This document shows, piece by piece, positions 3,947 to 39,607 of a stretch of 64,000 nucleotides of DNA. The notes under the pieces were generated by a model, which ran no database searches, was not told where the DNA came from, and worked only from the letters and a program-made list of their open reading frames with translations. Source of the stretch: Pantoea alfalfae (lineage in GTDB: Bacteria; Pseudomonadota; Gammaproteobacteria; Enterobacterales; Enterobacteriaceae); assembly GCF_019880205.1 (NCBI RefSeq), contig NZ_CP082292.1, positions 682,001 through 746,000 on the forward strand. The letters are read 5' to 3'. How positions within the stretch are numbered: the first letter of the stretch is position 1; each line of letters begins with the position of its first letter. Both the position numbers and the translations under genes were made by a program.

Positions 3947-6091
3947 ATGTTAGCGACCTCATACGACACTTTTATCGTCATCGTCTCCGTTCTTGTGGCG
4001 ATGCTGGCTTCGTTTACCGCTTTAGATATGGCGGGACGGGTCGTACATTCTACCGGCAAAGTGGCGCTGGTCTGGCTGTTCGGCGGTGGTTTCTCCATGG
4101 GCATTGGCATCTGGGCAATGCACTTTATTGGCATGCTGTCGATGAACATGGAGATGGTCATGAGCTACAACGCCGGACTCACCGCTTTCTCCGCCGCCAT
4201 CGCCGTCTGCGCGTCGATATTTGCACTGTGGCTGGTCTGCAATGGGGATATGCCTTTGCCGCGTCTGGCGGGCGGCGCGCTGATCCTCGGCAGTGGTGTC
4301 GCGGCGATGCACTACACCGGCATGGCGGCGCTGATGTTCTCGCCCGGTATCGTCTGGCAATGGGGCTGGGTGGCGCTGTCGGTGGCGATTGCTCTGGCCG
4401 CTTCGGGCGCGGCGCTGTGGCTGGCGTTTAACCTGCGTGAGGGGCAGACCAGCCGGGTCACGCTACTGCGTATTGGCGCCTCTGTGGTCATGGGCTGTGC
4501 GATTGCAGGCATGCACTATACCGGCATGATGGCGGCAGAGTTTCCCGTCCACAGCCATCCGGTCGGGCAGGGCGTTAACAGCAACTGGCTGGCGATTCTG
4601 GTCACGGTAGTCACCATCTCCATCCTGGGCATTACCCTGCTGGTCTCAATGCTGGATGCGCGGATGCAGGCGCGTACCTCGATTCTCGCCAGTTCGCTGG
4701 CTGATGCGAATCGCGAGCTGGCTCAGCTGGCGCTGCACGACAACCTGACCCGGTTGCCGAACCGCATCCTGCTGGAAGATCGACTGGAGCAGGCGATCAA
4801 TAAAGCGAACCGTGAGCAGGCGCAGTTTGCCCTGATGTTTATGGATCTCGATGGGTTTAAGGCAGTTAACGACGCCTTCGGACATCACATCGGCGACAGT
4901 CTGCTGGTCGGGGTGACCGAGCGGATGAGTCAGCAGATGACCGGCTACTACACGCTGGCACGGCTCGGCGGGGATGAGTTTGTGCTGCTGGTGGAGATCG
5001 ACGATCCCAACGATGCCGCGGCCATTGCTGATAAGCTGGTTAAAGCAACAGGGCGTCCGTTTAATATCTCACGCTACGAACTGGTGGTCTCACTGAGTCT
5101 TGGTATCGCCGTCTATCCCGGCGATGGCGTGGATGAGCGGGAACTGATGTTCAACGCCGATGCAGCGATGTACCACACTAAAAATAATGGCCGTAACGGC
5201 TACACCTTCTTCCAGCCTTCTATGAACATCCAGGCGCAGAGCCAGCTTCAGCTGAATAACGATCTCTGGCATGCGCTGGATAACGACGAACTGCGCCTGT
5301 TCTATCAGCCAAAATATTGTGCGCCGCGCGGCCCGATCCTCGGTTTTGAGGCGTTACTGCGCTGGGAACATCCGAAGCGCGGCCTGCTGTCGCCCGATAA
5401 ATTCCTGCCGATGGCGGAAAAGACCGGCATGATTGTCAACATCGGCAACTGGGTGATCCATGAAGCCTGTCGTCAGCTGCGCCAGTGGCATCTGCAGGGC
5501 CATCCGGACTGGTCGGTAGCGGTGAACCTGTCGGCACTGCAGTTTGAGCAATCGAATCTGGTGGAGACGGTGGTGGATGCGCTGACAAAACATCAGATTC
5601 CGGCCGAACTGCTGACGCTGGAAGTGACCGAGACCACTGCGATGCGCGATCCCGATGAGAGCGTGCGTATTCTCACCGAGCTGACCCAGCTCGGCGTGAA
5701 AGCTTCAATTGATGACTTTGGCACCGGCTACTCCAGCCTGCTCTATCTGAAACGCCTGCCGGCCAGTGAGCTTAAGATTGACCGGGCCTTTGTTAATGAG
5801 CTGCAGCATCAGAAAGAAGATGCCACCATCGTGTCGGCGATTGTGGCGCTGGCGCAGTCGCTGCAGCTGAAAGTGGTGGCTGAAGGTGTTGAAACCGCTG
5901 AGCAGCAGGCCTTTCTGACCAGCCTGGGCTGCAATACGCTACAGGGCTATTTGCTGGGCAAGCCGGTTCCCCCTGAGCGAGTGCCGAATCTGGCTAACTT
6001 TGTGGTGGCGGAAACGGAAGAGGCGATGGCAAACGTGAGCCCGATTGCTGAAGCCGATCAGCCACTGACGCCGCAGTTGGCGGTAATCTGA
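3947..6091 (+). CDS. MHYT-GGDEF-EAL cyclic-di-GMP enzyme (intact paralogue)
   Basis: A 714-residue paralogue of the preceding protein with the same order: seven-helix MHYT sensor (MHFIGM, MHYTGM, MHYTGM), GGDEF domain (RLGGDEF near residue 345) and EAL domain. Here every EAL element looks standard: EALLRW, NLSALQF, EVTE, IDDFGTGYSSL, KIDRAF, AEGVET. It can therefore be expected to hydrolyse c-di-GMP, while the GGDEF half may synthesise it or only bind GTP. The C-terminal 30 residues past the EAL fold are low-complexity. Its start codon has a weak ribosome-binding site. The tandem arrangement points to gene duplication with divergence of the upstream copy. Confidence 0.9.
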   Translation: MLATSYDTFIVIVSVLVAMLASFTALDMAGRVVHSTGKVALVWLFGGGFSMGIGIWAMHFIGMLSMNMEMVMSYNAGLTAFSAAIAVCASIFALWLVCNGDMPLPRLAGGALILGSGVAAMHYTGMAALMFSPGIVWQWGWVALSVAIALAASGAALWLAFNLREGQTSRVTLLRIGASVVMGCAIAGMHYTGMMAAEFPVHSHPVGQGVNSNWLAILVTVVTISILGITLLVSMLDARMQARTSILASSLADANRELAQLALHDNLTRLPNRILLEDRLEQAINKANREQAQFALMFMDLDGFKAVNDAFGHHIGDSLLVGVTERMSQQMTGYYTLARLGGDEFVLLVEIDDPNDAAAIADKLVKATGRPFNISRYELVVSLSLGIAVYPGDGVDERELMFNADAAMYHTKNNGRNGYTFFQPSMNIQAQSQLQLNNDLWHALDNDELRLFYQPKYCAPRGPILGFEALLRWEHPKRGLLSPDKFLPMAEKTGMIVNIGNWVIHEACRQLRQWHLQGHPDWSVAVNLSALQFEQSNLVETVVDALTKHQIPAELLTLEVTETTAMRDPDESVRILTELTQLGVKASIDDFGTGYSSLLYLKRLPASELKIDRAFVNELQHQKEDATIVSAIVALAQSLQLKVVAEGVETAEQQAFLTSLGCNTLQGYLLGKPVPPERVPNLANFVVAETEEAMANVSPIAEADQPLTPQLAVI

Positions 6092-6217
6092 AGCACCTGA
6101 TCAGAGCTGAATCAGCGTAATCAGTACGATAAGCGATGCGCGCCGCCTGTCATTGGCTGCCGTGCGTGGTAAAGTCTCGCGGTCAGACTACTCGCGGTAA
6201 ACAAGGAGAGGCGACCC

Positions 6218-7621
6218 GTGGCGAAATACCAGCGCTTGATGGATGAGATTCAGCAGCAGATCGAGGCCGGCATCTGGCTGCCCGGCACCCGTTTACCGTC
6301 GCTGCGTCAGCAGGTCGCGCAGCAGGGTGTCAGCCTGATGACGGTGCTGCATGCCTATGAACTGCTGGAGAGTCAGGGCTGGATCGTCTCGCGTCCACAG
6401 TCAGGTTACTATGTGGCACCGCGCGCCTTAGTGCCCGCACCGCTCAGCGTGGCGATCAGCGAGCAGGTCGATATCAACGACTTTGTGTTTGATGTACTAC
6501 AGGCCACGCGCGATCCCGCCATCGTGCCGTTTGGCTCCGCGTTCCCCGATCCGGCACTCTTTCCGCAGCGTCAGCTGATGCGTTCACTGGCGAACGTCTC
6601 TCATCATCTGACTCCAACCGATGCGCTGCACAATCTGCCGCCCGGCAACGCCACGCTGCGACAGCTGCTGGCGCAGCGCTATGCGCGTCAGGGCATCACC
6701 CTGTCGCCGGATGAAATTGTCATCACCAGCGGGGCGCTGGAGGCGCTGAACCTCAGCCTGCAATCCCTGACCGAGCCGGGCGACTATGTGGTGATTGAGC
6801 AACCGAGTTTTTATGGCGCGTTACAGGCGATTGAGCGGCTCAAGCTCAAGGCGCTGGCGATTCCGGTCGATGCAAAGCAGGGCATCGATCTCATCCAGCT
6901 GGAGGAGGCGCTGCAACGCTGGCCGGTAAAAGCCTGCTGGTTGATGACAACATTGCAGAATCCGCTGAGCGTAACGTTAACGCCGGAGCGCAAACAGCAA
7001 CTGGTGACGCTGCTGACGCGTTATCAGGTGCCGATGATTGAAGATGATGTCTATGCTGAACTCTGGGCGGGTGAGGCTGCGCCGCTGCCCGCCAAGGCCT
7101 GGGATCGGCAGGGAAACGTGTTGCACTGTGGCTCCTTTTCCAAGTCGCTGGTGGCGGGTTTTCGCGTCGGCTGGGTGGCGGCGGGACAGCATGCGCAGCG
7201 CATTCAGCGCCTGCAGCTGATGAGCACGCTCTCAACCAGCGCACCGATGCAGCTGGCGCTGGCCGATTTTCTTGCCACGCGGCGTTACGACACCCATCTG
7301 AAGCGGTTGCGACAGATACTGGCGAAGCGACAGCAGATGGTGCGTCAGGCACTGCTGAAGATGCTGCCGCCTCAGGCTACGGTCAGCGAAGCGCGCGGCG
7401 GCTATTTTCTCTGGGTGACGTTGCCGGACAGCATCAACACTACCCGGCTCTACCAGCAGGCGCTGGCTCAGGGGATCAGTATTGCACCGGGGCAGTTGTT
7501 TTCGGCAGGAGAGCAGTTCAGTCACTGCTTCAGACTGAATACCGCCTGGCCGTGGGATAGTCGGGCCGAGGCGGCAATAGCGACGCTGGGTCAGTTAATG
7601 GCGGAACCGCAGGCGGATTAG
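6218..7621 (+). CDS. ydcR: MocR-type regulator: GntR helix-turn-helix fused to aminotransferase fold
   Basis: 467 residues starting at GTG with AAGGAGAG upstream. Residues 1-70 are a GntR winged helix (GTRLPSLRQQVAQQGVS), and about 100-460 an aminotransferase class I fold that binds pyridoxal phosphate, including the SFSKSLVAGFRVGW stretch with the Schiff-base lysine. Length and order match E. coli YdcR (468 residues). MocR proteins usually use PLP or an amino acid-PLP adduct as ligand for transcriptional control rather than transamination. The target is not evident: the next gene is convergent (ylaC-like), with stops overlapping by 4 bp, and the upstream gene is unrelated. Confidence 0.82.
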   Translation: MAKYQRLMDEIQQQIEAGIWLPGTRLPSLRQQVAQQGVSLMTVLHAYELLESQGWIVSRPQSGYYVAPRALVPAPLSVAISEQVDINDFVFDVLQATRDPAIVPFGSAFPDPALFPQRQLMRSLANVSHHLTPTDALHNLPPGNATLRQLLAQRYARQGITLSPDEIVITSGALEALNLSLQSLTEPGDYVVIEQPSFYGALQAIERLKLKALAIPVDAKQGIDLIQLEEALQRWPVKACWLMTTLQNPLSVTLTPERKQQLVTLLTRYQVPMIEDDVYAELWAGEAAPLPAKAWDRQGNVLHCGSFSKSLVAGFRVGWVAAGQHAQRIQRLQLMSTLSTSAPMQLALADFLATRRYDTHLKRLRQILAKRQQMVRQALLKMLPPQATVSEARGGYFLWVTLPDSINTTRLYQQALAQGISIAPGQLFSAGEQFSHCFRLNTAWPWDSRAEAAIATLGQLMAEPQAD

Positions 7622-8100
7622 ACGCGCGCCGCTTCCTGGTGGCCCCAGGTCAGGTAGTAGACATCATAAAAGTCCACTTCCCCTTTTTGCGTCAGCAGAC
7701 GCTGGATACCGCTTTTTACCCGTTCCGGTGTTTCAGGCAGCGACAGAATGCGTGAGATAGCCTGTTCGCGCACCGGCTGAACGTAATACCACTCACCGTT
7801 GTAGCAGACACGCAGATCGAGCGCATCAATATCTTCAAAGCGATATTTCGGGTTGATATCGAGCAGCATCAGCACGCTCATTACCAGCACAAATGCGGTG
7901 GCAAACCAGAAGGCGGGCCAGCCGAGCATCTCGGTGGTGAATATCAGCGCCACGCACAGGCCGTAGCAGAGATACATAACTGCCCAGAGGCCGGGATGGT
8001 TCTTCAGAAACGAGAGGCTAAAGCGCGGCAGGTTGTCGCGACGTTCTTCGCGGTTAAGCGTGGCGATCTCGTCAATCAGGATTTGTTTAATAGCGTCCAT
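7618..8100 (-). CDS. ylaC: YlaC-family inner membrane protein
   Basis: 160 residues, close in length to E. coli YlaC (156). The central part carries two membrane helices (about residues 38-58 and 62-82), flanked by a conserved N-terminal segment (REERRDNLPRFSLSF) and a cytoplasmic C-terminal part with YRFEDIDALDLRVCYNGEWY, both recognisable from E. coli YlaC. Function is unknown in the family. It is transcribed toward the MocR gene and its stop overlaps that gene's stop. No operon partner is visible. Confidence 0.85.
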   Translation of the reverse strand: MDAIKQILIDEIATLNREERRDNLPRFSLSFLKNHPGLWAVMYLCYGLCVALIFTTEMLGWPAFWFATAFVLVMSVLMLLDINPKYRFEDIDALDLRVCYNGEWYYVQPVREQAISRILSLPETPERVKSGIQRLLTQKGEVDFYDVYYLTWGHQEAARV

Positions 8101-8431
8101 TGGTTACCTCACTGTCATCTGTTAGCTATTACAACAGATAACAGTCAAGCATATCAGAAACAGATTTGTGCGATTTTTGTATAACAGTTTATCAAAAGAC
8201 TGCCCTGGCATCGGGCTGCCGTATCTGCGTGCCGGGCCGCCTGACATTTTGCAACACTTTACCGCAGTAAGAACCGCTATCTGCCGCCGTACAGGCACGG
8301 TCTCGCCCTATTGTTAGCGACACATTTGGCTTTAGTCAGCAATATCAGTCAATTATCTCAGTTGTGTCGTCCGGCGCACATTGCATTGTGCCGCGGGTTT
8401 GCCACACTTATAAAAAAAGCGGAGAACCTGT
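8101..8431. other. Intergenic region between ylaC and the cupin gene
   Basis: 331 bp of divergent spacer that presumably holds the promoters of both flanking genes. Inverted words around 8204-8221 (CTGGCATCGGGCTGCCG) could form a weak hairpin. No gene or confident operator was recognised. Confidence 0.4.
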
Positions 8432-9043
8432 ATGCGTGCCTCATCCTCCAGTCTGATGTTAATGATGTCCTTTGCCGCAGGTACTTTTTCGGCCGGGGCC
8501 TCTGATAATCCTCAGCATCTGATGCTCGCCATTCCGTCGGGTGGCGTACCTAATAACCCGTTACCTCTGATTATCTGGCCGCGCGTGGTGCCGGAAGAGG
8601 AGGAGATCGCAGCGTGGTTTGAGAAAACGTTCGACGAAAACGGCTGGCCACCCGCCTGGCGCTATCCGATTTTCCCCTATACCCACTTCCATCCCAACAC
8701 CCATGAACTGCTCGGCGTTGCGGAAGGCTGGGCGGAAGTGCTGTTTGGCGGCGACAGTGGCCGGATGGTCACCCTGCGCGCAGGCGATGCGGTGCTAATC
8801 CCGGCGGGTGTCGGTCATCGTCAGGTCAGTGCCAGCGACGATTTTATGGTGATCGGTGCCTATCCGCGTGGCATGTCGCCTGAGACGCTGCGCGACGAAC
8901 CCGCGAAGCTGAAGATGGCGCAAGAGCAGGTGAAAAAAGTGCCGTTGCCGACCCAGGACCCGTTTACCGGCAAAGAGGGCGCGTTAACCGAAATCTGGCA
9001 GCCGATTGCCGCGATGCATTTACAGCAACAGATGGACCTGTAA
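8432..9043 (+). CDS. Cupin-domain protein, YjlB-like
   Basis: 203 residues with a single RmlC-type cupin barrel. Metal-binding motif 1 is seen as HFHPNTHELLGVAEGWAEV and motif 2 as PAGVGHRQV; the family phrase GGVPNNPLPLIIWPRV precedes the barrel. Related proteins (B. subtilis YjlB-type) have no established substrate. The first 24 residues (MRASSSSLMLMMSFAAGTFSAGA) look like a short signal or membrane-insertion sequence, although family members are normally cytoplasmic; if so this copy would be exported. A GCGGAGAA ribosome-binding site supports ATG 8432. Confidence 0.75.
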   Translation: MRASSSSLMLMMSFAAGTFSAGASDNPQHLMLAIPSGGVPNNPLPLIIWPRVVPEEEEIAAWFEKTFDENGWPPAWRYPIFPYTHFHPNTHELLGVAEGWAEVLFGGDSGRMVTLRAGDAVLIPAGVGHRQVSASDDFMVIGAYPRGMSPETLRDEPAKLKMAQEQVKKVPLPTQDPFTGKEGALTEIWQPIAAMHLQQQMDL

Positions 9044-9069
9044 ACGCCGTTTCTCTCGCGAAATGATTA

Positions 9070-9137
9070 AGCGCGAGCCAGCCTCGCGCTCTGACCTTGC
9101 TGACTGTAAAACCTGCCTGAACGCCTGAGCTCAGGCG
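9070..9137. terminator. Two strong hairpins downstream of the cupin gene
   Basis: AGCGCGAG...CTCGCGCT (9070-9090) forms an 8-bp stem, and CGCCTGAGCTCAGGCG (9122-9137) is a perfect 16-bp palindrome. Neither is followed by a long T run, so they may act as mRNA-end stabilisers or weak terminators. Confidence 0.45.
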
Positions 9138-9315
9138 CTTATCCCAATCATTACACCATTGAACATTTGCTCGCCGCTGCCGATATATCCCCTGATAAGA
9201 TTAGTTATTCTTCTTAATACGCTTGTCTTCGCAGACCTTTTCCGCTTTAGTCTCGGCTCGCGATTAAGAACATTCCTAAGCCTTTACCGGGCTCCCGAGC
9301 AGCAGGCAAATAACA

Positions 9316-12165
9316 ATGGATAATAACTCTGATGTCATGTATCGCATGCTGGTACAAAGCGTGATCGACTATGCGATCACCATGCTTAAACCGGACGGAA
9401 CTGTCGCCAGCTGGAACGGCGGGGGTCTGCACGTCCTTGGTTACAGGCCAGACGAAATTATTGGACAGCACGCCGCCCTGTTTTACAACGAAGAGGATCG
9501 CCGTCGCGGTCAGCCGCAGCGCGAACTCGATATCGCCGCCACCACCGGACGTTACGAAAACGAAGGCTGGCGCTGCCGTAAAGATGGCAGCAGCTTCTGG
9601 GCACACGTGGTCATCTATCCCATCCGCGACGAGACCGCTCAGCTGATTGGATTTGCTGCGGTCTGCCGTGACTGCACCCGGCAGCAGGAGCAGCAGCGCA
9701 AAGAGCGGGAGCAGGAGATGCGTTTCCGCCTGCTGGTGGAGGGCGTCACCGATTACGCCATCTACATGCTCGATCAGGACGGTAACGTAGTGAACTGGAA
9801 CGCCGGCGCACAGCGGGCCAAAGGCTATGTGGCGGAAGAGATTGTCGGCCAGCATTTTTCCCGTTTCTACAGCGCACAGGATCGACTCAATCATATCCCC
9901 AGCCAGAACCTGCAAACTGCCTATCGCACCGGCCGTTTTGAAGATGAGGGCTGGCGCTACCGCAAAGATGGCAGCGCGTTCTGGGCACATGTGGTGATCG
10001 ACACGATCCGTGACGATCAGGGCAAGCTGCTGGGCTATGCCAAAATCACCCGTGACTGCACTGAACAGCAGCGTGTCCGCAGCGAGCAGCGCGAGCAGGA
10101 GCAGCGTTTTCGCCTGCTGGTTGAGGGCGTAACGGATTACGCCATCTATATGCTTGATACCGACGGCGTGGTTGTGAACTGGAATGCCGGCGCACAGCGC
10201 GCCAAAGGTTACAAAGCGGAAGAAGTGGTCGGTCAGCACTTCTCGCTGTTTTACAGTGCTCAGGAGCGGCTGAACAGGACACCGGAAGCTAATCTCGGTA
10301 TCGCGCTGAAAACCGGTCGTTTTGAAGATGAGGGCTGGCGCTACCGTAAAGATGGCAGCGCGTTCTGGGCGCATGTGGTTATCGACGCGATCCATGATGA
10401 TGACGGTAAGCTGATCGGTTTCGCCAAGATCACCCGCGACCGCACGGAAGGCCGTGAGCAGGAGCAGCAGATCCTGCGCGCCCGTGATCTGGCCGAAGCG
10501 CAGAGCACGCAGAAAACCGCCTTGTCTAAATTTCTGGACAACATCATTGCCAACATTCCCTCCTGCGTGATTGTTGAAGATGCGATTACCCGCGAGATCC
10601 TGCTGGTGAATGACCGCACCCAGCAGCTGTTTGGCCTGTCGAAAGCACTGATCGTCAACAAGCGTCCGCACGAATGCATGTCGCCTGAGCTTAGTGACTA
10701 TTTTAACAATCTGGCGGACGTTGCACTGCGCAGTGAGGGCATGCATGAGCGTGAGCAGTTACTTATGACTGCCAGCGGCGAACGCATTCTGCATACCCGC
10801 GCCACCGCGATTAATGGCCAGGATGCGCGCCGCAACTACCTGATGCTGCTGGTGGAAGATGTCACCGACCAGCGCGCCGCCGATGCCCGTATTCACCATA
10901 TGGCGCACCACGACAACCTGACCAGCCTGCCGAACCGCATGCTGTTCCGCCAGCGTTTGAGTGAGGCGTTGCGCACTGCGAGCCAGACGCAGCGCCAGAC
11001 CGCCGCGCTGTGCCTTGATCTGGATAACTTCAAAAATGTGAACGATGCGCTGGGCCATCAGATTGGCGATGAGCTGCTGCGCAGCGTGGCTAAGCGTCTG
11101 CGAAACACGCTGCGCGATCAGGATACGCTGGCGCGCATTGGTGGCGATGAGTTCGCTATCGTGCTGCCCTCGGTAGCAAACAGTGAGGAGGCGAGCATTG
11201 TGGCGCAGCGTCTGATCGAGGCGATTCGTCCGCCGGTTAACGTTGAAGGTCATAATCTGTCGGTCGGGCTGAGCGTGGGTATTGCACTCAGCACCACCAT
11301 CACCAATACGCCGGAGCAGCTGTTGCGCTGTGCGGATATGGCGCTGTATGAAGCCAAACGTAATGGCCGCAACCGCTATGAGCACTTTACGCTGGAGATG
11401 GATGATGTGGCACGCAGCCGACGCCTGATTGAAAACGATCTGCGCGATGCGATCAGCGGCGGGCATTTGCGGCTCTACTATCAGCCTATTACCAATGGCG
11501 ATCACCGCACGATTATTGGCTATGAAGCGCTGATGCGCTGGCATCATCCTATCCGCGGGCTGATTATGCCCAACGACTTCATCCCGATTGCGGAAGAGAC
11601 CGGCCTGATTCATATGCTGGGAGCCTTTGCGCTCTATGAAGCCTGTCGTGAAGCGGCGAGCTGGGAAGGGGAGCAGTCAGTCTCGGTCAACCTCTCACCG
11701 CTGCAGTTTAAAAACAGCTCGCTGGTGCCGGTGGTTGAAGGTGCGCTGAAAGAGTCGGGTCTCGATCCGGCGCGACTGGAAGTCGAGATCACCGAATCGG
11801 TGCTGCTGGATGACTCGCTGGGGAATATCCGTACCCTGCAGAATCTCAAGGCGCTGGGCGTACAGATTGCGCTGGATGATTTCGGCACCGGCTATTCGTC
11901 GCTGAGCTATCTGCGTTCCTTCCCATTCGACAAAATCAAAATCGACAAATCGTTTATCAACGATATGGGCGACAGCCGCGAGGCGCTGGCGATAATCCGC
12001 GCGATTACCGGCATGAGCCGCAGTCTGGATATCCAGATTACCGCTGAAGGCGTGGAGAGCGATGAGCAGTTCACGAAGCTGCGCGATGAGGGCTGTACGC
12101 TGTTTCAGGGCTTCCTGTTCGGACGACCTCAGCCGTCGGAGCTGCGGCTGAAAACGCTGGGTTAA
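9316..12165 (+). CDS. Multi-PAS GGDEF-EAL cyclic-di-GMP enzyme with triplicated PAS
   Basis: 949 residues, no membrane helix. Three consecutive PAS/PAC units (about 1-120, 135-255, 260-380) are repeats of one another; units 2 and 3 share long stretches such as RFRLLVEGVTDYAIYMLD and WRYRKDGSAFWAHVVID. A fourth PAS (about 400-515) links by coiled coil to a GGDEF domain (RIGGDEF, with RDQD just upstream fitting the RxxD inhibitory site) and a full EAL domain (GYEALMRW, NLSPLQF, EITESV, LDDFGTGYSSL, KIDKSF, AEGVES). All catalytic motifs look intact, so it could both make and degrade c-di-GMP in response to a soluble or redox cue. It stands alone between divergent or convergent genes. Confidence 0.92.
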   Translation: MDNNSDVMYRMLVQSVIDYAITMLKPDGTVASWNGGGLHVLGYRPDEIIGQHAALFYNEEDRRRGQPQRELDIAATTGRYENEGWRCRKDGSSFWAHVVIYPIRDETAQLIGFAAVCRDCTRQQEQQRKEREQEMRFRLLVEGVTDYAIYMLDQDGNVVNWNAGAQRAKGYVAEEIVGQHFSRFYSAQDRLNHIPSQNLQTAYRTGRFEDEGWRYRKDGSAFWAHVVIDTIRDDQGKLLGYAKITRDCTEQQRVRSEQREQEQRFRLLVEGVTDYAIYMLDTDGVVVNWNAGAQRAKGYKAEEVVGQHFSLFYSAQERLNRTPEANLGIALKTGRFEDEGWRYRKDGSAFWAHVVIDAIHDDDGKLIGFAKITRDRTEGREQEQQILRARDLAEAQSTQKTALSKFLDNIIANIPSCVIVEDAITREILLVNDRTQQLFGLSKALIVNKRPHECMSPELSDYFNNLADVALRSEGMHEREQLLMTASGERILHTRATAINGQDARRNYLMLLVEDVTDQRAADARIHHMAHHDNLTSLPNRMLFRQRLSEALRTASQTQRQTAALCLDLDNFKNVNDALGHQIGDELLRSVAKRLRNTLRDQDTLARIGGDEFAIVLPSVANSEEASIVAQRLIEAIRPPVNVEGHNLSVGLSVGIALSTTITNTPEQLLRCADMALYEAKRNGRNRYEHFTLEMDDVARSRRLIENDLRDAISGGHLRLYYQPITNGDHRTIIGYEALMRWHHPIRGLIMPNDFIPIAEETGLIHMLGAFALYEACREAASWEGEQSVSVNLSPLQFKNSSLVPVVEGALKESGLDPARLEVEITESVLLDDSLGNIRTLQNLKALGVQIALDDFGTGYSSLSYLRSFPFDKIKIDKSFINDMGDSREALAIIRAITGMSRSLDIQITAEGVESDEQFTKLRDEGCTLFQGFLFGRPQPSELRLKTLG

Positions 12166-33950: not shown

Positions 33951-34026
33951 GCCCGAATAGCTCAGTCGGTAGAGCAGGGGATTGAAAATCCCCGTGTCCC
34001 TGGTTCGATTCCGGGTTCGGGCACCA
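33951..34026 (+). tRNA. tRNA-Phe (GAA)
   Basis: A 76-nt cloverleaf: acceptor GCCCGAA/TTCGGGC, D arm GCTC-AGTCGGTA-GAGC, anticodon stem GGGGA/TCCCC with loop TTGAAAA (anticodon GAA), T arm with TTCGATT, and encoded CCA. Differs only slightly from E. coli tRNA-Phe. A rho-independent terminator follows directly. Confidence 0.98.
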
Positions 34027-34111
34027 TCTTTAAAGAACCCGCCTCTGGCGGGTTTTTGCGTTCTGAGGCGAACCCGTTATCGACGGTTCGATTCACTTGC
34101 CACATCCTGTG
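34010..34111 (+). repeat. Direct repeat A: tRNA-Phe 3' end plus terminator
   Basis: This 102-bp segment covers the last 17 nt of tRNA-Phe, the AACCCGCC-TCT-GGCGGGTT terminator and 57 bp after it. It recurs at 34167-34268 with three mismatches (offset 157 bp). Confidence 0.9.
34036..34057 (+). terminator. tRNA-Phe terminator
   Basis: AACCCGCC and GGCGGGTT make an 8-bp stem with loop TCT followed by T4; textbook rho-independent form. The same structure recurs at 34193-34214. Confidence 0.88.
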
Positions 34112-34166
34112 ACTCGCCCTTCGGGTCGCGCTGGCACGCGATGCAAAAATGCTCCCGGCATTTTTG

Positions 34167-34268
34167 TCCGGGTTCGGGCACCATCTTTAAAGAACCCGCC
34201 TCTGGCGGGTTTTTGCGTTTTGAGGCGAACCCGTTATCGACGGTTCGATTCACTCGCCACTTCCTGTG
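34167..34268 (+). repeat. Direct repeat B: orphan tRNA-Phe 3' end plus second terminator
   Basis: Second copy of the 102-bp repeat. It retains only the last 16-17 nt of the tRNA, including CCA, and is preceded by a hairpin (GCAAAAATGC...GCATTTTTGT, 34143-34167) instead of the tRNA body. A third terminator-like hairpin, AAACCCTCGC-TTCG-GCGGGGGTTTTT, lies at 34281-34306. The pattern fits an attachment-site remnant or a partly deleted tandem tRNA array. Confidence 0.85.
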
Positions 34269-34521
34269 GCTCCATAAATGAAACCCTCGCTTCGGCGGGG
34301 GTTTTTGCGTTTAAAGACAATACTCAGCGAATGTATGCCTCTGCGCTGATTTCAGCGTTAATCTGCACTTCGCGAGCCAACAGATTCGTCGTAAGCAGAT
34401 AAAGAACGACTGCGCTATGGGGCCGTTTTTCGTACGGCCCGGCCTGGAAGAACCTAATTGATTGTTCGTTTTTTGTTCGATTATTGAAATGAGATACAAG
34501 ATTTATGAATGTTGCTAAGGC

Positions 34522-35334
34522 ATGCTTAAAACGTCTAAGACAAGGCATAAAAGGGTATTTATAAAAATAAGGGAGTTAACTGTTGAACAGATTGAAACAC
34601 AAATTTCTCAGCACATTAATGGATTACCAGAGTCGCTGATCAACTATTTTAAAAACGACTATGAAGACGATTTAATGGTCGTCATTGAGGATCTTCTTCC
34701 CCTGGATCTACAACAGAAGATGGAAGATGAGGCGCGCTCACTGCTTGAGAAAAATGCGCTGCGTCGTGAAGTTATTATCAAACAGAGTGGTAACAAACCA
34801 AGGGCATACGATAGTGTTGGCCGTAATGCTATTCGTGAAGAAGGGAAATATATTCCTGCCTTTTTCGACAGCCCAGGTGTCCTGAAATTTCTTTCCCGAA
34901 TTACCGGTGAAGAAATTTATCGCGTACCTTACGAGCCTGAAGAATTTATCATCAATTCCCAAAATAAAAGTGGCGATACTCATGGCTGGCATTGGGATGA
35001 CTATTCGTATGCTTTAGTATGGGTAATTGATGAGCCTGATGTGCTTTCAGGTGCCCGGGTTGAATTTATCCCGCGCATTCCCTGGAAGAAAGAGAATACA
35101 AGAGAGTGGATTAAAAAGACGCTGGCTGAATATCCGGTTATTAGTCGTCATGTTGCTCGTGGCCAGTGTTACCTGCTAAGGGCCCGGGATGCTCTTCATC
35201 GTATAGCGCCGTTAACACAGGAATCTCGTCGCACAGTTATCGTTTTTACGTATGCAAATGAGCTGGACTTTAACGACGCATCGCTGACACATGATTCAAT
35301 GGAAGAGATTTATCCACAAGATACAGCTCAATAA
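34522..35334 (+). CDS. Fe(II)/2-oxoglutarate enzyme of the HalD/BesD family, hydroxylase-type HxD
   Basis: 270 residues. The iron site reads GWHWDDYSYALVWVID: H157-W158-D159, with the distal ligand H226 in RDALHRIAP and a 2-oxoglutarate-binding arginine in ESRRTVIVFTYA. Amino-acid radical halogenases BesD and HalD carry HxG at the first site to make room for chloride; the Asp here implies hydroxylation, probably of a free amino acid. The start is uncertain: ATG 34522 lacks a well-spaced ribosome-binding site and residues 1-20 look untypical, though no better in-frame start was seen. It heads an AT-rich cluster and is the only gene in it without a disabling mutation. Confidence 0.8.
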   Translation: MLKTSKTRHKRVFIKIRELTVEQIETQISQHINGLPESLINYFKNDYEDDLMVVIEDLLPLDLQQKMEDEARSLLEKNALRREVIIKQSGNKPRAYDSVGRNAIREEGKYIPAFFDSPGVLKFLSRITGEEIYRVPYEPEEFIINSQNKSGDTHGWHWDDYSYALVWVIDEPDVLSGARVEFIPRIPWKKENTREWIKKTLAEYPVISRHVARGQCYLLRARDALHRIAPLTQESRRTVIVFTYANELDFNDASLTHDSMEEIYPQDTAQ

Positions 35335-35361
35335 AAAATAGTAAGAATAATGGAGGGTACA

Positions 35362-36087
35362 ATGTCAGCAGTTGGCATGAACGATAAAACAGGATTTCCT
35401 GTGTTTTTTACAGAAGTGCCCAATAATCTCGGTCGCTATCAGGACTATACTTTCGCATCAGAAAAATTTGCTAATTTGTTCCCTCCATCTGAATACGCGT
35501 CTGTATTAGATATATGCTGCGGCATAGGAAAAATGAGTCATGCTTTATTTCTTCAGGGGTATAAAGTGACTGCCATAGATTTATCTTCTGAACAAATTGA
35601 AATAGCAAAAAAGGATGCCTCAGGCCCAGGTTATTACCAGGCTGATATGAAAGATAATCCCGGTAAAAATTACGACCTGTTAATTAATATATATACAAGT
35701 TTCGGGTACTACACCACTGAGGCAGAAGACCTGTCACTTTTCAGATACTGGTATGGGTTATTACGTCCGGGCGGTGTTCTTGTAATGGAACTTGCTGATA
35801 TGGAAAGAGCAAGAAATCGAATTAATGCAGAGGGCGTTTTAGTCCGGGAAGATAATGGCGTTACGGAATATCTTCATATGGATTGGAATAAGAGACTGCT
35901 TAGGGTTGATTATCATAATCAATCCCAGCACTGGAGTTGCCTCACAAGGCTCTATGAGAAAGAAATGCTCAGAGATGAGTTATTAAATGCAGGCTTTGAA
36001 AGCGTGTCGTTATAGGGTGATTTCTCTTTGAAGAAAAAAGAGAAAGACGACAATCTGGTTATCATTGCACGTAAAGGATTAAAATGA
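35362..36087 (+). pseudogene. Class I SAM-dependent methyltransferase with internal amber codon
   Basis: ATG 35362 follows a strong GGAGGG. The frame is open for 217 residues with SAM motif I VLDICCGIGKMSHAL, motif II-like VTAIDLSSEQIEIAKK, and LLRPGGVLVMELAD, then stops at TAG 36013-36015. The same frame continues for 23 more codons (G-D-F-S-L ... L-V-I-I-A-R-K-G), the usual final strand of such methyltransferases, ending at TGA 36085-36087, which overlaps the next gene's ATG (ATGA). So the ancestral protein was about 241 residues and the amber codon probably replaces a Tyr. The shortened product lacks the last strand and is likely impaired unless the amber is read through. Confidence 0.82.
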
Positions 36088-37342
36088 AAAGATACATCTG
36101 TATTGTTGATGCGTATTCTACAGGTGCTGAGTTAGCGCCTATTTTCAAAAAAGATGGCTGGACTTGCATTCATATTCAATCATCCCCGGAGATTCCACTG
36201 GAATATCAGCAAACATTCAGACATGAAACATTTGATTTCCTGATTTCGCCGGGTGATGAATCTCACAGTGAATTTTTGAGGATAGCCGAAGAACTTAAGC
36301 AACTGTCGCCAGAATATATTATACCTGGAACAGAAACCGGTGTTTATATCGCAGACCTCCTGTCTTCGTTAGTGGGTACCCCCGGGAATTCAATAGACAC
36401 CAGTGCTTTGCGTCGTAATAAATATGCAATGCAGGAGGCCTTAAAATCAGGGGGAATCAGCTCTATACCTCAGTTTTTAACCGACTCTGTTGAACAGGCA
36501 AAGAAATGGGCTGGTGAGCTGAATAAGTGGCCTGTCGTCGTCAAACCCGTGGATAGCGCTGGAGCGGATAGTGTTCGCTTTTGCAACACGGTTGATGAAG
36601 TACAGAATGCCTTTAATAAAATATATGGTAAAAAAATAAATTAGGTTTAAAAAATGGCACTGTTCTTTTGCAGGAACGCCTTATCGGAAGGCAATATATT
36701 GTCAATGCGGTCAGCATCAATGGACAGCATCTGATTACAGAGATATGGTCTGATGACAAAAAGGAAGTTGAGAATGCATCGCTGATTTGTGAAAGGGAAA
36801 TTCTTCTGCCTTACTCGGGTGAAGTACAGGATCAGCTTGTCAGATATATGGAAAAAGCGCTGACTTTTCTCGGTATCGCCAATGGCCCGTCTCATAGTGA
36901 AGTAATGATGACGGAATCCGGGCCTGTGCTTATTGAAACCGCTGCCCGAATGCAGGGAACTATCATGCACAACGCGGTTGTGTCTGCATTGGGATATAGC
37001 CATGTCACACTTACTGCCGAACGTTATGTGAAACCTCAACGTTTTGCTGCCAGGCTTGGAAAGAATTATATGCTCAAAACTCAGCTGCAATGTATTACAC
37101 TGGCTTCAGAATTTGAGGGTGTGGTTAAAGTTAATAATTGCGAAAAATTGCTTAAGTTACTCCCATCCTATTTCGGCATGATGCACACGCCAGATGCAGG
37201 CGAGAATATATACAGGACGACGGATCTTTTTACTAATCCAGGTATTATTTACTTGTGTCATGAAGATGAAAAGCAAATTGACAGTGATCATGCAAAGATC
37301 AGAATTTATGAAAAAGAAGGTAAACTTTTTGATTTAGCCTGA
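36084..37342 (+). pseudogene. ATP-grasp carboxylate-amine ligase, frameshifted at a 7-A run
   Basis: The first part (36084-36644) gives the N-terminal and ATP-binding regions (SALRRNKYAMQEALKSGG, WPVVVKPVDSAGADSV). The remainder (from 36632 in another frame, to 37342) has the metal- and ATP-binding segment QERLIGRQYIVNAVS and ETAARMQGTIMHNAV. The two join cleanly if one A is added to the run at 36630-36636. Intact length would be about 419 residues. Relatives ligate an amino acid to another amino acid or carboxylate, for instance to make dipeptides. Transcriptional slippage or -1 slippage on A-AAA-AAA could restore some product. The start overlaps the methyltransferase stop (ATGA). Confidence 0.8.
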
Positions 37343-37349
37343 GAATAAT

Positions 37350-38307
37350 ATGAATAATAAAAATTATCTTTTTGGTCTATTGATGGTCTTCCTCTATAAT
37401 TTTCTTGATGCTGTAAAGGAGGTTTATTCGGGATTCCTTGTTCAGGATAATCATCCTTTAAGCATCACTTTTATTGTCTTTTCAATTGCAATGCTCTTTT
37501 TTCAGTCTTATGGTGTTATTTTTAACCGAAGGAATTATGTTTCTACGGTGCGATTTTTTGCACCCGTAGTAATTTTAAATATTACTACAGCGGGTTCCTG
37601 GATAACATTTTTCTATTGCATGAAGTGCCTTGAGCCCGCGGTGGCGTCTGCTATTATAACAGGCGTAGCACCGTTAATGATTATTTTCATTGCACCAATG
37701 TTTTTTAAAAATGAATCTCATCAATACAAAGCTATATATATTTCCGGGATTACTGTTTGTTGTCTTTGGCTCGCTCTGATTAGTTTGCATCAGGGCCGGT
37801 TTATCTATAACTATTCTTCATCAGACGTTATGGCTGGCGTGATGATGGCGGTGCTCTGTCTTCAGTATCTTCTCTAATATTTTTAGCAGAAAACTGAGTG
37901 ACAAAGGTTGCTTACCCTCTTCGATCATGGCACATCGCTTTTACATTACAGTATTTATAACAATGAGTTATAGCATGGATTCATTTGGTTATAGTGCGAT
38001 AGGTGAAACCCTGTCACCGGGTATCGTCATCCTTGCTATATGTGGCGTGGTTATACCACTTTGGTGTCTGCAGTACGGCATAAAATCTTTACCACCTGCC
38101 AGAGTTATGGTTTTTATTTCTGTAAATCCGATTTTTACTTTCATTTTTCAGTTATTTGACCCGAGATTATCGCCATCACTTTCCTCACTTGTTGCAATTC
38201 TGTTAATATTTTTCTTCTCTCTTGCATCAGAGATATGGGGCGTAAAGCCGAAAGGAAAGGTTGAATCAGATGGGTATCACGATATATCGGAAGATCGCCG
38301 GAATTGA
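37350..38307 (+). pseudogene. EamA/DMT-family exporter, frameshifted
   Basis: Two open frames, 37350-37877 and from about 37852 to 38307, together encode a ten-helix DMT transporter of about 318 residues. The join is near 37851-37862 and needs one base removed: frame 1 ends VMMAVLC and frame 2 continues with FSNIFSRKLSDKGC. The second half holds the repeat EamA motif region (GVVIPLWCLQYGIKSLPPARVMVFISVNPIF). The family exports amino acids and small metabolites, matching an exporter for the cluster's product. It begins 7 bp after the ATP-grasp stop and overlaps the regulator start by 38 bp. Confidence 0.8.
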
Positions 38308-39058
38308 GGTCACATTATCAGACAGCACCAATCATATTTTTCCAAAGCACTCTCATGATGAGTTCTACATTGGTGCTAATGTCTCGGGAAGAGAAAAGAT
38401 TTAGTTAGATGGAAAAAATGCTGAGGCCAGTATTGATGAGATAACCATTTATAATCCAGGTCAGATTCAGGCTGCTGAGCCTACACCCTATGAATGGTAC
38501 TACTACAGCTTTTATGTTTCCCCCGAGTCAATGATGGAATTTACCGGTCTCCATTGTGATGATCATTTCAAAAAAAACATTATCGCAGCGCCTGATGTGG
38601 CAGCGGAAATACGTCAGGTCGCTGCATTTGCACTCGATCGCCACACGTCAGATTGCGAGATTAACGAACGCGTGGCGAGTGTTCTGCAATCAGTGCTTTC
38701 TCGGTCAGGCGCACATCCGCATATCGCGATAAAAACAACAGATAAAACTGTCGTTGATTATGTGGTAACGAGACTAATGGATGATTTTCATTTTCCTCCT
38801 ACGCTTCAAATGTTGGCAAATGAAACAGGCGTCTCACCCGTCAAACTGGTCAGAATGTTTACTAACGTTAAGGGACTTCCGCCTTTTGCATGGATTAAAG
38901 GAGCACGATTGCGTCAAGGTAAGAATATGATTATTCAGGGGAAAGCTATATCTGACATTTCAGCTCAATTAGGTTTCACCGACCAGGCACATTTCACGCG
39001 AAATTTTAAAAGCATGTTCGGGGTTACGCCTGGTCAACTTTATAAGCTCGCACAATAA
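38270..39058 (+). pseudogene. AraC-family regulator with amber codon 45
   Basis: Frame from ATG 38270 (AAGGAAAGG upstream) gives an AraC cupin-like N-terminus: FPKHSHDEFYIGANVSGREKI, then TAG at 38402-38404, then LDGKNAEASIDEITIYNPGQI. The stop sits where the family has Trp or another residue before LDG, so it is an amber mutation in an otherwise open 262-codon gene. The C-terminal part has two helix-turn-helices (PTLQMLANETGVSPVKLVRMF, AISDISAQLGFTDQAHFTRNFKSMFGVTPGQ). Re-initiation downstream, for example at ATG 38531, could give a 175-residue DNA-binding fragment. It was probably the local activator of the cluster. Confidence 0.82.
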
Positions 39059-39607
39059 AGATGCTGTGAGGGCGTTAACTTAATTAAGCTTTTTAGCATA
39101 GTCAGAATTACGCTGAGCCAGCGTCTGACAGGACACAATCCTGCAGCGCTGCATTACTATCCTTTCTCTTTTGTTTATTTTGCTGTTTCATCTGCTCCTG
39201 ACGTCCTTAATCCGTAAACCTGACTCACCCGGCAAGGCACCGCCACTGTGGGGTTTAACCGCGGCAGGCTGTGACACGTAAGGTAATCGGGTTCCTGGTC
39301 TGGCGTAGCCGCGGGTTATGCACAGCGCCTTGCTGCGGTCAGTGGAATGTAATACCGATGTACTCACTACTGCCTGAAGATTCTGATTTTCACCGCTCTC
39401 CGGCCCATTGCTTGTCTCAATTCTACAACGATACAAACAGATTTCATGGCGAAATCAATTTGCCGCTTCGCCTCTGTGCTGCGTTGCCAGACTGGCACCG
39501 CCTGATATCCTGTCCAGCCTGCAATTGACCGTGGCTAATCGTGTTTTATAAGCCACCCTTTACAGAATCATCCTGACAGGCACAATACCCCTTTTTCCTC
39601 CTCTTAC
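39059..39607. other. Right boundary of the AT-rich island; no gene seen
   Basis: 549 bp between the AraC pseudogene and the next diguanylate cyclase. Composition rises back toward that of the core. Short open frames on both strands have no recognisable similarity. No copy of the tRNA-Phe 3' end was found here, so no right attachment site is evident. Confidence 0.45.

Follow-up and report, generated by a model that had tools for sequence, protein, structure and literature searches.

What might a short row of five genes in the genome of Pantoea alfalfae once have made, how did it come to lie beside a tRNA gene, and can it still work? The row occupies positions 34522–39058 of the window, by which we mean the whole 64,000-nucleotide stretch analyzed (NCBI RefSeq assembly GCF_019880205.1, contig NZ_CP082292.1, positions 682,001 to 746,000 of the forward strand). 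Its five collinear plus-strand genes encode an Fe(II)/2-oxoglutarate (2OG) oxygenase, a methyltransferase, an ATP-grasp ligase, an EamA transporter, and an AraC regulator. A first-pass annotation made from the sequence alone had given these coordinates, these gene identities, and the positions of the iron ligands in the oxygenase, all of which agree with the open reading frames (ORFs) and profile matches. We consider it likely that the row is a horizontally acquired biosynthetic operon beside a tRNA-Phe gene that now consists of pseudogenes, and that its working form would have carried out hydroxylation, methylation, dipeptide formation, and export. BesD-type enzymes, which install hydroxyl groups or halogens at unactivated carbons of free amino acids, are sought-after biocatalysts. 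The five-gene pathway combines such an enzyme with a methyltransferase and a ligase that stands alone, and is compact enough for reconstruction in a single experiment. The genes are as follows:

34522–35334, plus strand: Fe(II)/2-oxoglutarate oxygenase of the BesD/HalD family, hydroxylase type (Pfam HalD, PF23169, 4.4e-81); frame open, native start (~34582) probably lost
35350–36081, plus strand: class I S-adenosylmethionine-dependent methyltransferase (Methyltransf_25, 1.1e-12); premature stop at 36013–36015
36084–37342, plus strand: ATP-grasp ligase of the PRK07206 (L-amino acid ligase/DdaF-like) subfamily (NF005543 on both halves); frameshift near 36,630
37350–38307, plus strand: EamA-family transporter (PF00892 on both halves); frameshift near 37,851
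38261–39058, plus strand: AraC-family regulator (HTH_18, 4.2e-19); premature stop at 38402–38404

The oxygenase belongs to the BesD/HalD family by sequence and by fold, as had been proposed in the first-pass annotation. Its match to the Pfam family scores 272 bits against a cut-off of 26, and a sequence search of the PDB returned HalB (2.2e-40), HalD, lysine halogenases including BesD, and a BesD-like lysine hydroxylase as the best solved relatives. An AlphaFold model with a predicted local distance difference test score of 95.6, built from a 54-sequence alignment (the window sequence and 53 of the 60 references listed), was found to resemble HalB (Z 36.5, root-mean-square deviation 1.4 over 245 positions), HalD (35.1), the BesD-homologous lysine hydroxylase Hydrox (33.6; PDB 7jsd), HalA (33.6), and BesD (32.4), these being the values for the best chains; a second Hydrox entry, 9oet, gave 28.4. 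The best match outside the HalD family is another 2OG oxygenase at Z 18.7, and the entries ranking beneath the family (6n1f, SnoN, and PHD2) have only the common 2OG-oxygenase fold. The enzyme is 28–30% identical to the BesD/HalD enzymes and has, like them and Hydrox, an iron-binding pair of histidines and an Arg/His/Glu/Asp clamp, but lacks the halide-binding glycine.

The iron ligands are H157, D159, and H226. The first-pass annotation had treated the HxD motif as a departure from the HxG of the halogenases; the site is indeed HxD, but this is no peculiarity of the window, since the aspartate is present in 87 of 88 aligned family sequences, BesD being the exception, in a set biased toward HxD by scan peptides that included HGWHWDDY. 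(The set contains BesD and two duplicate pairs, L001 being the window itself and L030 being equal to L032; the broken oxygenase of locus L149 is left out, and proteins longer than 330 residues were cut.) Membership among the halogenases was rejected on the HxD site, and the score against the BesD equivalog NF042920 (L-lysine 4-chlorinase) is 145.1 bits, below the cut-off of 450. The HxD...H triad and the amino-acid clamp fit the free amino acid hydroxylases of the BesD family. Hydrox likewise has HxD, and its V223 (PMC13244439) parallels the valine that the window oxygenase carries at the position of BesD N222. According to the same paper, BesD holds the carboxylate and ammonium groups of lysine with R77, H137, E123, and D143. 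The equivalent residues in the window oxygenase, R94, H154, E140, and D160, are identical in 88/88 sequences, while BesD D239 and W241 correspond to E261 and I263 and are not kept, in a region where the alignment is less sure. Substrates in the HalD family include lysine, ornithine, leucine, isoleucine, and norleucine, as reported in excerpts of PMC8407142 and PMC8359417. Because the clamp is identical across the sample while the substrates of the family vary, it points to a free amino acid but not to which one. No specific substrate was assigned, since the clamp is uniform while lysine, ornithine, and hydrophobic amino acids are all accepted within the family (PMC8407142).

The remaining genes suggest how such an enzyme might have been embedded in a pathway. 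The two halves of the ATP-grasp gene match NF005543 with 161.8 and 226 bits. Its intact homolog in Candidatus Pantoea deserta (locus L003) scores 412.7 bits, above the PRK07206 subfamily cut-off of 302, and so belongs by score with the L-amino acid ligase of PDB entries 30vh and 30vq; 30vh is the nearest solved relative (3.3e-79 over the whole length). The same homolog is not a DdaF (dapdiamide A synthase) equivalog, reaching only 224 of 840 bits. For the two EamA halves the scores are 25.3 and 28.7 bits, the cut-off being 28.2. In the mechanism that we propose, the BesD-fold hydroxylase would add a hydroxyl group to a free amino acid gripped by its carboxylate and ammonium groups, the methyltransferase may methylate the hydroxylated amino acid or the product on N or O, the ATP-grasp enzyme would join the amino acid to a second one via an acyl phosphate, the EamA protein would export the product, and the AraC protein would act at the conserved element that precedes the operon. 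We infer a hydroxylated, methylated amino acid or dipeptide as the product. By analogy with the mangotoxin cluster, which according to parts of PMC13185094 has two ATP-grasp ligases and illustrates how ATP-grasp enzymes beside amino-acid oxidases yield small peptide antimetabolites, an antimetabolite dipeptide would be the most likely kind.

Whether this pathway can still operate depends on the state of the genes, and all five look damaged. The closest copy, at locus L149 of genome G028, is 80% identical in DNA over ~4.6 kb and served as reference. The methyltransferase and AraC genes are each interrupted by an in-frame TAG and are otherwise alignable over the full length of the 243-residue and 265-residue G028 proteins, respectively. 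The ATP-grasp gene has one frameshift, inside a run of A, and the EamA gene has another, such that the 320-residue G028 protein aligns in two frames. Besides the two TAG codons, the lesions relative to G028 include a start-codon difference and a 5-base difference. The former concerns the oxygenase, whose codon at 34582, just after AAGGGAGTTAACT, is ATG or GTG in four of five related clusters (L003, L004, L149, and L150), the fifth (L151) having GTG one codon after the matching position; the oxygenase frames of L149 and L150 extend further upstream, and the placement of the start there is an interpretation. The window has a start codon at neither position, and a ribosome-binding-like stretch precedes 34582. 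The native start thus probably lay ~60 bases inside the listed ORF and is now lost. An intact oxygenase as the sole survivor of the decay, a possibility that we considered, was rejected on this comparison, a verdict that is likely rather than proven. With four genes interrupted and the native start of the fifth probably lost, the pathway very probably cannot run here. The decay noticed in the first-pass annotation therefore amounts to two premature stops, two frameshifts, and a probable loss of a start.

Sister copies allow this decay to be placed in time. In G028 the oxygenase alone is broken and the other four proteins are full length. No lesion is common to the window and G028, and the two copies must therefore have decayed independently; two sister copies broken in different genes provide a clean case of an operon acquired and then abandoned. 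The ratio of nonsynonymous to synonymous substitution rates (dN/dS) between them is 0.02–0.13 in six of seven segments, with dS of at least 0.77 (5.2, near saturation, in one segment); it was not computable for the N-terminal half of EamA in this pair, nor for any of the five genes between L003 and L004, where dS is saturated. Such low ratios imply that the window and G028 copies were mostly under purifying selection since their split and that the decay is recent, and the comparison with the sister copy points to a function kept until recently.

How the cluster arrived is indicated by its surroundings. The G+C content is 40.8% in the cluster vs 55.5% in the flanks, and two further features define the site:

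33951–34026, plus strand: tRNA-Phe (gaa), identified with ARAGORN, bordering the inserted segment on its upstream side and also present at the empty sites of loci L152–L158
34273–39369, no strand assigned: acquired segment (~5.1 kb) without counterpart in the relatives examined; edges from blastn, approximate to ±200 bases

The window was compared by blastn with seven relatives (G019, G059, G015, G001, G013, G057, and G050), which were the best upstream-flank matches among 60 other genomes of the genus. In 7/7 the matches end at 34065–34272 and restart at 39370–39433, with at most 84 bases in between in the relative, so that the site is empty in every one. Intact flanks and empty sites at tRNA-Phe together indicate that the ~5.1-kb segment was acquired and is now decaying. 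The AT-richness and horizontal origin claimed in the first-pass annotation are thereby upheld, and in lying at a tRNA gene and being missing from the relatives examined the segment resembles a tRNA-associated genomic island. The G028 cluster has a complete tRNA-Phe on one side and, ~33.7 kb from that gene, a 52-base duplicate of the tRNA 3′ end on the other; the duplicate differs from the window tRNA at four positions and is adjoined by a ParA-like gene and a DnaB/DUF4400 remnant. The cluster thus seems to travel with tRNA-Phe islands. No tRNA was found within the 15.8–19 kb read around the clusters of L003, L004, L150, and L151, and other insertion sites must therefore be used too. After the tRNA, between 34007 and 34270, the 3′ end of tRNA-Phe and its terminator are repeated in tandem as partial copies, in the window and in relatives alike, suggesting repeated insertions at the site.

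The gene set is conserved as a unit among close relatives. Intact syntenic clusters, for which the first-pass annotation had recommended a search, were found with the same order and strand in Candidatus Pantoea deserta (L003), P. ananatis LMG 2665 (L004), and two genomes from other genera of the family (L150 and L151), which shows where the pathway can be sourced; L149 has the same five genes in the same order and strand, apart from its broken oxygenase. A search of 61 genus genomes and 392 sampled family genomes, together with a scan of genome contigs, yielded four unbroken oxygenase orthologs of at least 74% identity, and all four sit in intact five-gene rows. Within the genus, the oxygenase search of all 61 genomes found orthologs at this level only in G000 (the genome of the window), G004, G014, and G028, and a search of a plasmid collection gave 39 records, all at 26–45% identity. 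The clusters also share an element ahead of the first gene:

34485–34501, plus strand: conserved element TGAAATNNNNTACAAGA upstream of the oxygenase, a candidate AraC operator or promoter element

An exact match to TGAAATNNNNTACAAGA lies upstream of the oxygenase in 6/6 five-gene clusters (the window, L003, L004, L149, L150, and L151); elsewhere in the 184 loci it is absent, the 17 matching loci being these same six clusters fetched repeatedly; 0.07 occurrences with at most one mismatch would be expected by chance in the window.

Beyond these orthologs, the triad of oxygenase, methyltransferase, and ATP-grasp ligase was found at ten loci in ten genomes or plasmids (L149 included), with hosts that include Paenibacillus, Variovorax, Streptomyces, P. 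allii, and a Yersinia plasmid. The divergence of the three proteins is correlated across the ten loci (Mantel r 0.92, 0.93, and 0.96; 0/5000 permutations). Among the 80 loci of the genome-contig scan, seven have a methyltransferase and an ATP-grasp gene within 6 kb (L003, L004, L008, L017, L021, L030, and L032, the last two being from one organism), nine more have an ATP-grasp gene without a methyltransferase (some at 24–28% identity), five have AraC and LysE, and four have a single other partner; weak AraC matches (E >1e-15) were discarded ahead of counting. The P. allii cluster (L030) and a Yersinia frederiksenii plasmid (L161) share with the window the order oxygenase, methyltransferase, ATP-grasp, EamA. 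They differ in having an oxygenase that is 34–36% identical, an extra 225-residue protein between oxygenase and methyltransferase, a LysA-like decarboxylase, and a DapC-like aminotransferase, and no AraC was found within 6 kb. We rejected the idea that the P. allii cluster is the phosphonate cluster Halophos (PMC12873547): 13 ORFs of L030 (16.7 kb) were searched in Pfam and NCBIfam, including EamA and ATP-grasp, and no phosphonate enzyme was found, one ORF matching nothing (21 ORFs of at least 110 residues are listed, several of them overlapping). In the family genome G205, which gave no HalD-type oxygenase match, locus L181 (335–9199, minus strand) has the methyltransferase and ATP-grasp genes together with an oxygenase of the TauD family, which supports the view that the two may be a module working with an amino-acid oxygenase. 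Also encoded at L181 are a LysA-like decarboxylase, an aminotransferase resembling DapC, another methyltransferase-like protein, and a carbamoyltransferase of the NodU type; three of the other proteins at this locus have relatives in the P. allii cluster.

Several findings weigh against an acquired, now defunct five-gene pathway. In the window between 30000 and 46000, no copy of the tRNA end was found beyond 34183 at the mismatches allowed, and no integrase was detected among the seven segment fragments searched in Pfam. The upstream ATG at 34522 might still yield some oxygenase, the loss of whose function is likely and not certain. No named family gives more than a weak match to the methyltransferase. 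At 55 of the 80 scanned loci, none of the five partner proteins was found within 6 kb at the thresholds used, so that the five-gene unit is a minority arrangement in the oxygenase family, and the Mantel correlation is partly shared species history. The likeness to the bes cluster drawn in the first-pass annotation applies to the oxygenase but not to its partners: at the besD locus (L162, 14.6 kb, ORFs of at least 100 residues) no match to the ATP-grasp, methyltransferase, and EamA profiles was obtained at E ≤1. Intact relatives that occur without the other four genes, which the annotation had named as telling against its proposal, were seen for oxygenases at 40–62% identity, which lack methyltransferase and ligase, but not for orthologs of at least 74%. 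These distant oxygenases make the order and the need of the later steps a matter of guesswork.

They also raise the question of whether the oxygenase is a functional core that acts alone, its hydroxy amino acid being exported, with the methyltransferase and ligase forming a separate neighboring unit. Rows of AraC, oxygenase, and LysE without methyltransferase and ligase, which occur in Alphaproteobacteria and in Aureimonas (62% oxygenase identity), would fit this arrangement, as would a Peribacillus plasmid on which genes for an aminotransferase and an amino acid permease enclose that of the oxygenase. Against it, the four intact orthologs of at least 74% and the broken L149 retain all four partners in the same order, a single upstream element serves the whole row, and the triad recurs in distant phyla, and we regard this explanation as unlikely. 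A catabolic or detoxifying role, in which the first two enzymes of the row would disarm a foreign amino acid or dipeptide and EamA would expel it, appears quite improbable to us: an AraC regulator and an exporter would suit a substrate-induced efflux operon, and relatives of the oxygenase adjoin transport genes, but an ATP-grasp enzyme of the L-amino acid ligase type is typical of clusters for small peptide antimetabolites such as mangotoxin (PMC13185094, in part). That the lesions are sequencing errors in a cluster intact in the strain is hardly credible. The lesion near 36,630 does sit in a run of A, a typical error site, but the lesions are of mixed types and 10/10 flanking genes (126–519 residues) are covered end to end by ORFs of L152 without a stop or frame break, the comparison being confined to matches above 75% identity and one of the ten being cut by the locus edge. 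Sequencing error as the cause of decay was rejected on these unbroken flanking genes, and the sequence comparisons indicate that the decay is real and recent.

Returning to the acquired biosynthetic operon, we tentatively suggest, with slightly less confidence than doubt, that the triad represents an undescribed family of pathways making small, exported, hydroxylated and methylated dipeptides from free amino acids in Enterobacterales, Betaproteobacteria, Bacillota, and Actinomycetota, and that the five-gene form is a minimal, mobile version gained at tRNA-Phe and quickly lost. Our literature searches, whose scope was the text of papers outside subscription and without their supplements, returned no description of a cluster of oxygenase, methyltransferase, ATP-grasp, EamA, and AraC genes. 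The Pantoea antibiotic clusters covered in the main text of PMC11350110 (dapdiamide, pantocin A and B, PNP-1 to PNP-5, and others) resemble the window cluster in their low G+C content and patchy distribution, and some copies of PNP-3 are similarly frameshifted. The words ATP-grasp, dioxygenase, and EamA are missing from that main text; the gene tables are in the supplements, so that the window cluster may be identical with one of these.

A few observations concern other loci. On the Peribacillus plasmid (L160:1–488 and 5440–9460), the aminotransferase and amino acid permease flank the oxygenase, and a gene annotated as guanitoxin L-arginine gamma-hydroxylase lies ~6.5 kb from it. The genome of the window encodes a second, distant HalD-family protein (contig C5, L184:6184–6969, plus strand; 69.7 bits) with an HxD site, whose neighbors are a LysR gene, a DUF1989 protein, and a 1201-residue biotin-dependent carboxylase. 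Similar weak HalD-type matches (E ≤0.001) are present in 41 of the 61 genus genomes, so this looks like a gene widespread among these bacteria, with a possible link to the metabolism of urea or amidines. On contig C2 (L183:2540–11480, minus strand), the same genome has three consecutive ATP-grasp proteins together with a major facilitator superfamily transporter, an aminotransferase-fold enzyme, a luciferase-like oxidase, and a TauD-type oxygenase, which is likely another biosynthetic cluster.

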